The notes under the pieces: model-generated | The model's database searches: none | Told to the model about the DNA's origin: nothing | The model's input: only the letters and a program-made list of their open reading frames with translations | Made by a program: the position numbers and the translations under genes | Part shown: positions 22,203-24,860 of the stretch, piece after piece | Layout of the letters: each line of letters opens with the position of its first letter | Position numbering within the stretch: position 1 is the stretch's first letter | NCBI RefSeq assembly: GCF_001267885.1 | Contig: NZ_CP012382.1 | Coordinates: forward strand, 5,319,001 to 5,383,000 | From: Streptomyces ambofaciens ATCC 23877 | GTDB lineage: Bacteria > Actinomycetota > Actinomycetes > Streptomycetales > Streptomycetaceae | Reading direction: 5' to 3' | Length of the DNA: 64,000 nt

Positions 22203-23609
22203 ATGTCGGTAGGCGAAGAGGTCCGCACCGAGCAGACCAGGCCGCAGCAGAGCCTCGGCACGGCGGCCGCGCGGAACCTGGCCACCACGACCAAGTCCGT
22301 TCCTCAGATGCAGGAGATCAGCTCGCGCTGGCTGCTGCGCACCCTCCCCTGGGTGGACATCCAGGGCGGTACGTACCGGGTGAACCGGCGCATGACCTTC
22401 GCCGTGGGGGACGGCAGGGTGACGTTCGTGAAGACCGGCGACCGCGTCGAGGTCATCCCGGCGGAGCTGGGCGAGTTGCCGGCCCTGCGCTCGTACGAGG
22501 ACGAAGAGGTCCTCTCGGAGCTCGCGCGCCGCTGCGAGCAGAGGGAGTTCGGCCCTGGTGAGGTGATCGCCTCCTTCGGCGGCCGGGCCGACGAGGTCTA
22601 CCTGCTGGCGCACGGCAAGGTGGAGAAGGTCGGCAGCGGCCCCTACGGTGACGACGCGGTGCTCGGCGTCCTCGCCGACGGCGCCTACTTCGGCGACGAG
22701 GCGCTGCTCGACGGGGACGCCATCTGGGAGTACACCGCCCGGACGGTCACCGCCTGCACGGTGCTCGTCCTGCCGCGCCAGGACGTGGAGCAGGTCGCGG
22801 AGCGTTCGGACTCGCTGCGCACGCACCTGGAGGGGCGGCGCTCGATCCCCGACCAGCCCACCAACAGGCACGGCGAGAAGGCGATCGACCTCTCCGCCGG
22901 GCACAGCGGCGAGCCCGACATCCCGCACACCTTCGTCGACTACGAGGCCCGGCCCCGTGAGTACGAGCTGAGTGTCGCCCAGACCGTGCTGCGCATCCAC
23001 TCGCGCGTGGCCGACCTCTACAACCAGCCGATGAACCAGACGGAGCAGCAGATCCGTCTGACCGTCGAGGCACTGAAGGAGCGCCAGGAGCACGAGCTCG
23101 TCAACAACCGCGAGTTCGGCCTCCTGCACAACTGCGAGTACGACCAGCGCATCCAGCCGCACGACGGGGTTCCCGGCCCGGACGACCTGGACGAGCTGCT
23201 GAGCCGCCGGCGCGGCACCAAGCTGCTGCTCGCCCACCCGCGCGCGATCGCCGCGATCGGCCGCGAGCTCAACAGGCGCGGGCTCGTCCCCGAGACGATC
23301 GACATCGCGGGCAACCGCATCCCGACCTGGCGCGGCGTGCCGATCTACCCGTGCAACAAGATCCCGGTCACCGAAGCCCGTACGACGTCGATCATCGCGA
23401 TGCGTACCGGCGAGCAGGACCAGGGCGTCATCGGTCTGCGGGCCACCGGCATCCCGGACGAGATCGAGCCGAGTCTGTCGGTGCGCTTCATGGGCATCAA
23501 CGAACAGGCCGTCATCAAGTACCTGGTCACGGCCTACTACTCGGCCGCGGTCCTCGTGCCGGACGCGCTCGGAATCCTGGAGAACGTCGAGATCGGCCGC
23601 TGGCAGTGA
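22203..23609 (+). CDS. eshA: Family 2B encapsulin shell protein EshA with inserted cyclic-nucleotide-binding domain
   Basis: 468 residues. Residues 1-90 and about 245-468 correspond to the HK97-type capsid fold of encapsulins (N-arm, E-loop, then P- and A-domain; compare [25 protein letters not shown] near the end). Inserted at about 100-215 is a CAP-type nucleotide-binding domain ([20 protein letters not shown], then [16 protein letters not shown]). This layout is the Family 2B encapsulin. EshA is known in S. griseus and S. coelicolor as a 52-kDa protein forming large multimers, linked to aerial growth and ppGpp level. The next gene is a prenyl diphosphate synthase with a disordered leader, the expected cargo. 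The binding cassette lacks the canonical PRAAT arginine position, so ligand binding is uncertain. Confidence 0.93.
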
Positions 23610-23632
23610 CGCCAGTCTTCCGAACGCCGTGT

Positions 23633-23667
23633 CCCCGCCCTCGCGGGCGGGTACACCCCGGGGGTAC
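23633..23667 (+). terminator. Two hairpins between shell and cargo genes (attenuator-like)
   Basis: CCCGCCC-TCGC-GGGCGGG (about 23634-23651) is followed at once by GTACACCCCGGGGGTAC (23651-23667). No U-tract follows. They lie in the 87-base gap between eshA and the prenyl synthase, and could terminate some transcripts or protect the eshA 3' end, setting shell above cargo. Confidence 0.55.
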
Positions 23668-23696
23668 GGAGGCGGACGTATGGGGGAGGTGAGTCC

Positions 23697-24860
23697 ATGA
23701 CGGAGGCTCCGCTCGGCGTCACCGACCCGCGTCGTCCCACCGGCACGCTGGAAAGGCACGGGGTCATCGGCACGCAGCGGGACAAGGAGCCGGAGACGCC
23801 CGCCGACGGGCAGGGGGAGGAGGCCTCGGCCGAGGGGCACGAGGCGGCGGCGCTCCTGCGGGAGTCACGGGCGTCGGTCGACCCCGAACTGCGGGCCGCC
23901 ATGGCGACGTTGCCCCCCTCGATGCGCCGCACCGCGCTCTACCACTTCGGGTGGCAGCACGCGGACGGCAGCCCCGCGGCCGGTAACGCGGGCAAGGCGA
24001 TCCGGCCCGCACTCGTCCTCACCTCGGCCGCCGCCCTCGGCGGACCCGCGGCCCGGGCGGCGGCGGTGCGGGCCGCGGCCGCGGTGGAACTGGCCCACAA
24101 CTTCACCCTGCTCCACGACGACGTGATGGACCGGGACGTCACCCGCCGTCACCGGCCGACCGCGTGGACCGTCTACGGCGACGCCGACGCGATCCTCGCG
24201 GGGGACGCCCTCCACGCACTGGCCCTGCGGATGCTCGCGGCGGACCCGCACCCGGCGTCCGCCGCGGCGGCCGTCCGGCTCGCCGACTGCGTCATGGAGT
24301 TGTGCGAGGGCCAGCACACGGACACGGCCATGGAACGGCGCGCCCCGGGCGAGGTCACCCTGGACGAGACGCTCGCCATGGCCGAGGCCAAGACGGGCGC
24401 CCTGCTGGGCTGCGCCTGCGCCTTGGGCGCGCTGTACGCCGGCGCTCCGGACGAGGACGTCGAAGCCCTGGACCGCTTCGGCCGCGAGGCCGGGCTGGCC
24501 TTCCAGCTCATCGACGACGTGATCGGCATATGGGGCGATCCGCACCGCACCGGCAAGCCGGCCGGGGCGGATCTCGCCGCCCGCAAGAAGTCGCTGCCCG
24601 TCGTCGCCGCGCTCACCTCGGGCACCCCGGCGGCCGCCGAGCTCGCCGAGCTCTACGCGGCACCGTACGAGGAGGACAAGGAGGATCTGGAGCGCACCGC
24701 ACTGGCCGTGGAGCGGGCGGGCGGCCGGGACTGGGCTCAGGCCCAGGCGGCCGACCACATGGCCAGGGCCATGCAGGAACTGGCCCGAGCCGTGCCCGAC
24801 CCGCAGGCGGCGGGCGGACTGCTCGCGCTGGCCGAGTTCGTGACCCGGCGCAGCACCTGA
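23697..24860 (+). CDS. Polyprenyl (geranylgeranyl-type) diphosphate synthase, probable encapsulin cargo
   Basis: 387 residues. The first 55 are disordered, acidic and low in hydrophobics, opening with a short conserved-looking motif, PLGVTDPRRPTGTLERHG (residues 5-22). Such leaders target Family 2 encapsulin cargo. The catalytic all-helical domain follows: GKAIRP (99-104), first Asp-rich motif DDVMD (141-145), EGQHTD (204-209), second motif DDVIG (273-277) and RKKSLP (296-301). It condenses isopentenyl diphosphate with an allylic diphosphate; product length is not decidable. The second motif ends in Gly rather than Asp, common in actinobacterial members. A strong GGGGGAGGTGA ribosome site precedes the ATG. 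No terpene cyclase is adjacent. Confidence 0.9.
   Translation: MTEAPLGVTDPRRPTGTLERHGVIGTQRDKEPETPADGQGEEASAEGHEAAALLRESRASVDPELRAAMATLPPSMRRTALYHFGWQHADGSPAAGNAGKAIRPALVLTSAAALGGPAARAAAVRAAAAVELAHNFTLLHDDVMDRDVTRRHRPTAWTVYGDADAILAGDALHALALRMLAADPHPASAAAAVRLADCVMELCEGQHTDTAMERRAPGEVTLDETLAMAEAKTGALLGCACALGALYAGAPDEDVEALDRFGREAGLAFQLIDDVIGIWGDPHRTGKPAGADLAARKKSLPVVAALTSGTPAAAELAELYAAPYEEDKEDLERTALAVERAGGRDWAQAQAADHMARAMQELARAVPDPQAAGGLLALAEFVTRRST

Follow-up and report, generated by a model that had tools for sequence, protein, structure and literature searches.

What is a prenyl diphosphate synthase doing beside the gene for an encapsulin shell and, if the shell encloses it, what takes it inside? 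The question is posed by two adjoining genes at positions 22203–24860 of a 64,000-nucleotide stretch of the Streptomyces ambofaciens ATCC 23877 chromosome (NZ_CP012382.1), which we call the window. A preliminary description of the pair had proposed a nucleotide-gated compartment for isoprenoid synthesis, with the synthase packaged through a disordered leader. The reading we favor, with a probability of roughly 0.6, is that an eshB-type family 2B encapsulin has the adjoining prenyl synthase as its cargo, and that in the window's lineage the synthase is loaded by residues 13–28 of its leader. The pair itself is already catalogued; new here are two leader classes, a candidate targeting island, natural separations of the two genes, and a link to geosmin synthase. 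The genes and the signal between them are as follows.

22203..23609, + strand: eshB-type family 2B encapsulin shell protein of 468 amino acids (NF041163, PDB homologues, PF19307; HK97 fold by homology)
23685..23692, + strand: ribosome-binding site GGAGGTGA of the synthase, 4 nucleotides (nt) before its ATG
23697..24860, + strand: encapsulin-associated polyprenyl (probably geranylgeranyl) diphosphate synthase of 387 amino acids (NF041169, PF00348)

Both open reading frames lie where the preliminary description had put them, separated by a gap of 87 nt. The shell protein scored 767 bits against NF041163 ("family 2B encapsulin shell"; cut-off 400) over residues 17–466, and PF19307, an HK97-fold shell domain related to SrpI and recognized here from sequence only, covered residues 217–466 with 454 bits. 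It aligned almost end to end with the solved shells 9bhu, 9bix, and 9bje, the last two of which belong to the S. lydicus two-component 2B shell. Downstream, the synthase reached 485.9 bits against NF041169 (encapsulin-associated polyprenyl transferase; cut-off 450) over residues 51–386 and matched PF00348 at residues 97–332, so the partner of the shell is a prenyl synthase, as had been described. By these matches, the shell is a family 2B encapsulin with a CAP-fold domain inserted in its E-loop, and the pair is an ordinary member of a published class. Andreas and Giessen counted 900 polyprenyl transferase operons in 2021 (PMC8346489), and polyprenyl diphosphate synthase was named in the same year as the commonest neighbor of 2B shells (PMC8049743). 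The window agrees with these operons (NF041163 plus NF041169) in gene families, order, domain plan, and neighbor relation.

How firmly are the two genes tied to each other? In a sample of 150 Streptomyces genomes, 147 had a 2B shell and 114 had a synthase over the cut-off. We analyzed 111 synthase loci and judged three more genomes (G045, G059, and G133) by coordinates. The shell lay directly upstream on the same strand at 109 of the 111 loci and likewise in the three genomes, giving 112 of 114. One exception (L061) is at a contig end, and a shell occurs in the same genome near the end of another contig; at the other (L052), the synthase has been kept and the shell lost. Among 80 named loci, a set that partly overlaps the loci of the genome sample, 79 had the shell upstream, and at the remaining one (L143) the contig ends 27 nt before the match. 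The expectation, set beforehand, that the genes remain neighbors in other Streptomyces was thus borne out. Eight loci (L041, L083, L089, L098, L101, L108, L113, and L116) offer a single start codon ahead of the enzyme fold, and it overlaps the stop codon of the shell gene.

We next considered the part of the synthase that could mediate loading.

23697..23843, + strand: leader, residues 1–49 of the synthase, outside the enzyme fold (similarity to the closest solved synthase begins at residue 50)
23733..23780, + strand: constrained island RPTGTLERHGVIGTQR, residues 13–28, candidate targeting peptide of the window's clade (ratio of nonsynonymous to synonymous substitution rates, dN/dS; column shuffles)

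Alignment with the closest solved synthase begins only at residue 50, which leaves a leader of about 49 residues beyond the fold, probably disordered. The preliminary description had drawn the leader as the first 55 residues with a motif PLGVTDPRRPTGTLERHG; this motif overlaps the conserved RPTGTLERHGVIGTQR only partly. Across 25 synthases with cores at least 85% identical, dN/dS was 0.50 for residues 13–28, a segment chosen after the motif had been seen, as compared with 0.94 for residues 1–12, 0.80 for residues 29–49, and 0.25 and 0.17 for the core. When residues 4–46 were scanned within the window's clade, the best windows overlapped within residues 13–32, and column shuffling gave p values of 0.06, 0.011, 0.0008, 0.0007, and 0.0007 for windows of 10, 12, 14, 16, and 18 residues, respectively. 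Residues 13–28 are a candidate for the targeting peptide of a type of cargo for which none had been reported. Andreas and Giessen describe the leader of this class as disordered, 50–100 residues long, and without an identifiable conserved motif (PMC8346489). In the window's clade, by contrast, 16 residues of the leader form a constrained island, and about half of the Streptomyces members are almost leaderless; in the window, the part beyond the fold measures 49 residues.

A motif common to leaders in general was sought and rejected. The collection comprised 188 leaders, of which 124 had at least 25 residues and 70 were non-redundant. The terpene-cyclase consensus GPTGLGT occurred in none of the 70 and PTG in 12, as compared with 6.8 in shuffles. 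The pattern [DE]R[RHQ][GSR].[IV] occurred in 14 of the 70 versus 0.11 in shuffles, and its carriers belong to related lineages.

Leader length separates the synthases into two classes. Starts were picked with a rule based on ribosome-binding sites, and for some leaders (e.g., L010, L065, and L207) the choice is probably wrong. For the 58 synthases with an upstream shell and at least 76% identity to that of the window, leader length had a median of 39 residues (range 9–159). With the line between short and long set at 22 residues, the synthase tree contained a supported group of 46 rows, 45 of them short, and the other 63 rows comprised 55 long and 8 short; the length label needs nine changes on this tree. 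On the shell tree, one supported branch divides the shells according to the identity group of their synthase (43 and 49 rows), nearly the same split as in the synthase tree. Outside Streptomyces we used 20 loci and set aside L205, which is at a contig end. Ten synthases there have no shell nearby, eight of them with leaders of 4–12 residues, and leaders are long in four shell-adjacent synthases (L202, L203, L204, and L206). The leaders of L090 and L168 reach about 159 and 270 residues, respectively; that of L090 is made of degenerate repeats, which suggests rapid repeat growth.

From gene order and the leader, we infer that the prenyl synthase would be the encoded cargo of the adjoining shell and that, in the window's lineage, the leader would hold it in the lumen, with residues 13–28 as the working part. 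Because the same gene occurs elsewhere without such a leader, the synthase of leaderless lineages would be held in another way or stay outside. Several observations weigh against this reading. The remaining 51 of 109 shell-adjacent synthases, those below 76% identity, had a median leader of only 14 residues (range 7–44) with synteny unchanged, a length near that of eight of the ten synthases lacking a nearby shell (4–12 residues). Provided that the start lies no deeper than 10 nt within the shell gene, the leader is at most 20 residues in 8 of the 109 and at most 30 in 13, regardless of start codon. Outside Streptomyces, five shell-adjacent synthases were short (L207, L208, L210, L211, and L212), and for two synthases without a shell nearby (L218 and L219) the assigned leaders measured 26 and 77 residues. 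Taken with the lengths above, a long leader mostly accompanies shells, yet it is unneeded for synteny. Hence, the earlier idea of the leader as a packaging device draws support from the constrained motif in the window's clade but does not hold in general. Searches of open-licence literature found, in titles and passages, no polyprenyl transferase shown inside a 2B shell and no test of such loading.

The last point of this kind comes from natural separations. In 36 genomes no synthase exceeds the cut-off; five of these have a shell at least 77% identical to that of the window, and a sixth has one at 71%. At the orthologous locus in L220 and L224 the shell is present and the synthase gone, and in L221 the shell is followed by a 47-residue remnant of the synthase. 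Of 226 near-invariant positions, all are retained in one of these shells and 224 in each of the other two. Relative to their three nearest relatives, synthase-less shells had dN/dS of 0.09–0.19, similar to the 0.14–0.16 of paired shells, although two of the three synthase losses are possibly too recent for shell decay to show. The three shells have outlasted their synthases at dN/dS values resembling those of paired shells, so the shell seems to be of use even when no intact synthase is present. A fourth apparent loss (L222, in G082) was left uncounted because the adjoining GNAT gene is likewise in split frames, making sequencing error the likelier cause. The pair is not obligate, and each gene can be lost alone.

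These comparisons turn a vague class, defined by polyprenyl transferase cargo and a disordered leader without a motif, into testable statements: one lineage has a candidate targeting peptide, another has the same synteny and is almost leaderless, and three synthase losses have left an intact shell.

We next asked what the shell would form and whether its inserted domain could gate it. By analogy with published homologues, the protein would form a small (T=1) HK97-fold particle, with the CAP-fold domains sitting outside, above the two-fold pores. The genome, of 8.39 Mb with the window at C1:5319001-5383000, encodes two family 2B shells. Downstream of the second (L008, 9069-10523) come a terpene synthase and a methyltransferase. 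The terpene synthase scored 504 bits against a model of encapsulin terpene-cyclase cargo (cut-off 400), and the locus was taken as a 2-methylisoborneol (2-MIB)-type operon. We take the window's shell to be the orthologue of eshB (SCO5249) and the L008 shell to be that of eshA (SCO7699), an assignment made by context. In S. coelicolor, EshB (SCO5249) and EshA (SCO7699) are named and both are up-regulated during development (PMC3878966); of these, EshB is matched to the shell in the window and EshA to the shell beside the 2-MIB-type cyclase. The two-component 2B shell of S. lydicus (PMC12407261) has in common with that of the window its fold, the CAP insert in the E-loop, and a divergent nucleotide site. 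It differs in that it is built from two shell proteins and is partnered by a xylulose kinase, whereas the window has one shell and a prenyl synthase.

22542..22805, + strand: CAP-fold insert, residues 114–201, with Trp175 replacing the phosphate-binding Arg (PF00027, 63.9 bits versus 27.5)

The preliminary description had placed a CAP-like domain at about residues 100–215, and PF00027 does match at residues 114–201, colinear with the inserts of 9bhu, 9bix, and 9bje. Its further proposal that this domain makes the isoprenoid compartment nucleotide-gated fared differently. In its favor are the CAP fold itself, with PF00027 over its cut-off, and the position of the domain above the two-fold pores in solved homologues (PMC12407261). 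However, the Arg of the phosphate-binding cassette that marks a functional cyclic-nucleotide-binding domain is missing from the window's shell (Trp175). We aligned the 92 of 109 synthase-adjacent shells that were long enough in the DNA analyzed: the Arg position was Trp in all 92, the next residue was Glu in 80, and the acidic residue of the cassette was Asp in 60 and Glu in 32. The register of the Trp agrees with alignment to the Arg of cGMP-dependent protein kinase (PKG), and the three solved 2B shells have Trp as well. Trp is not universal at this position, since the genome's other shell has His there, as judged by eye. Dutcher et al. state that 2B insertion domains have been found to bind no cyclic nucleotide (PMC12407261), which contradicts gating for the homologues. 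Together, these results make a nucleotide-gated compartment highly improbable. The CAP-fold domains would not sense cyclic nucleotides and would instead shape the pores or bind another ligand.

Two further explanations of the pair must be weighed against leader-loaded cargo. The shell could be a regulator or storage particle that is linked to the synthase by shared regulation only, with the synthase cytosolic. The nearly leaderless synthases with unchanged synteny, the separate losses of shell and synthase, and the developmental up-regulation of the S. coelicolor eshB promoter (PMC3878966) are all consistent with this explanation. Nonetheless, the conserved immediate gene order (112 of 114 genomes), the start/stop overlap at the eight loci having no other start before the fold, and the constrained leader island favor a physical partnership in the window's lineage, and we consider shared regulation alone distinctly unlikely. 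The other explanation, which is possible but against which we would still bet, is that the eshB shell is primarily the compartment of geosmin synthase, loaded in trans by LGTSAAR-type tags, and that the prenyl synthase supplies substrate and may or may not enter. Geosmin synthase here means a match to NF041168 (NCBI: encapsulin cargo terpene cyclase), and one weakness is that we give it this name by two-domain plan. PMC8346489 speaks of geosmin-synthase-like cyclases, and there the loading function of the LGTSAAR-type motif is a proposal.

Co-occurrence speaks for geosmin synthase as a client. Among 394 genomes sampled from the class, 354 are listed outside Streptomyces and 40 within it. NF041168 matched at E ≤ 1e-150 in 52 of the 354, and all 52 matched the 2B shell model (E ≤ 1e-60), versus 23 of the 302 others. 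In three of the 52 (G298, G374, and G545), the shell match had E of 1e-74 to 1e-108, below the cut-off level, the G374 shell being cut by a contig end. Shell and cyclase were at most 1.5 kb apart in at least 33 of the 52 and at most 2.5 kb apart in at least 35, from coordinates read by hand. Yet this co-occurrence is confounded by shared ancestry, and Fisher values for it are therefore only descriptive. Within Streptomyces, NF041168 matched at E ≤ 1e-100 in 98 of 101 genomes, although the model's own cut-off was reached in only 8 of the 101. A single 2B shell match, beside the prenyl synthase, was present in 51 of the 150 Streptomyces, and the cyclase was found in 33 of the 33 of those searched, but 98 of 101 have the cyclase anyway. 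In G051 (L223:4230-8282), a shell 80% identical to that of the window is directly followed by a geosmin-synthase-like two-domain cyclase in place of the prenyl synthase; the cyclase's best model is geosmin-synthase-like, with a score below that model's cut-off. In L225, the 71% identical shell adjoins another two-domain terpene synthase, whose frame is cut short. The window genome's enzyme retains the inter-domain motif LTGPGTSAADV, but the inter-domain pattern did not match 4 of 34 members of one group and 17 of 38 of the other, and the cyclase is far from the shell in this genome (~0.93 Mb) and in most Streptomyces seen. Adjacent geoA and cnb genes are described in cyanobacteria and deltaproteobacteria (PMC7251104), and the cnb proteins of 469–471 amino acids beside geosmin synthase look to us like 2B shells; in the window genome, by contrast, the ~0.93 Mb separate the geosmin-synthase-like gene from the shell. 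No test of geosmin synthase in a Streptomyces shell was found within the same literature scope. Geosmin synthase is a possible second client in nearly every Streptomyces examined and, if this is true, the odor of soil is produced in a compartment across the genus.

In three genomes of another actinomycete genus (L210, L211, and L212 in G455, G348, and G374), a short-leader prenyl synthase lies between a 2B shell and a geosmin-synthase-like gene. Two 2B shell genes were seen at the L210 and L211 loci of G455 and G348.

How such a cyclase could be recruited is hinted at by the N-terminal arm (N-arm) of the shell itself.

22242..22298, + strand: shell N-arm, residues 14–32, resembling the LGTSAAR motif of terpene-cyclase cargo

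Almost every position of this arm was invariant in 25 shells. The sequence GPTGLGTSAAR in geosmin-synthase-like cyclases is published and has been proposed as a targeting sequence (PMC8346489). An N-arm profile placed 27 of 30 geosmin-synthase-like cyclases above the 95% level of shuffles and 12 of 30 above the 99% level, as compared with 0 of 7 control cyclases; the likeness was seen after the fact, and the scanned cyclases are related to each other. Of the 30 frames resembling 2-MIB synthase, 12 passed the 95% level and 5 passed the 99% level, with the strand doubtful in the 11 of 30 frames lacking the pattern used for strand choice. None of 109 synthases had an N-arm-like motif above the 99.9% level of shuffles. 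It is possible that the shell N-arm and the cyclase tag compete for one groove.

Leader and tag sort together in 71 genomes: 33 have a long leader and no C-terminal tag, 33 a short leader and the tag, 4 a short leader and no tag, and 1 a long leader and the tag. The table omits G078, for which no frame was obtained, and leader values are missing for G059 and G076. A swap of cargo was rejected as a statistical finding, in that the tag changes once on the tree and only one of five independent pairs is informative, which amounts to one old split and is not significant. With this single informative pair, a trade of tags was kept as a lead only. It would hold that the eshB shell is a geosmin compartment whose cyclase is loaded in trans by an LGTSAAR-type tag copying the N-arm, with or instead of the prenyl synthase, and that in half of the genus the prenyl synthase gained the leader and geosmin synthase lost its C-terminal tag, while the other half lacks the leader and keeps the tag. 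We regard this extended version as rather doubtful.

One of the five 2-MIB-synthase-like frames above the 99% level is a fusion (L309, in contig C124 of G041), in which a truncated eshA-type shell, from the N-arm to about residue 330, shares one frame with a 2-MIB-synthase-like cyclase. It is either a true fusion of shell and cargo or the product of a deletion in the assembly.

The likely product of the synthase can be read from its active-site motifs, as aligned across 32 synthases.

24117..24131, + strand: first Asp-rich motif DDVMD, residues 141–145, with Phe at −5
24513..24527, + strand: second Asp-rich motif DDVIG, residues 273–277

In these synthases D141, D142, M144, D145, and F136 are invariant, as are D273, D274, I276, and G277, the usual last Asp of the second motif being Gly. 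We take the Phe at −5 before DDVMD as a sign of a C20 product. The enzyme scored 361.8 bits against the geranylgeranyl diphosphate synthase IdsB (NF045549), below its equivalog cut-off of 475. It is most likely a trans-prenyl diphosphate synthase, and its product would be C20.

Finally, the preliminary description had noted that no terpene cyclase is adjacent. We saw no terpene genes among the scanned neighbors in the window or, judging by eye without a profile scan, in the 40 largest neighbor clusters, which agrees with its remark for the window and for the 80 related loci. The terpene cyclase that a terpene-cyclase type 2B operon has beside its shell was thus not seen at the window locus, whereas the genome's other shell locus has one. 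Neighbor clusters from 81 loci contained an antiporter (76 loci), a 1-aminocyclopropane-1-carboxylate (ACC) deaminase-like protein (62), an amidase (52), a GNAT protein (50), and nickel superoxide dismutase (SodN; 34); the amidase, GNAT, and SodN clusters were named by profile in the window and the other two by eye. The neighborhood looks like core chromosome.

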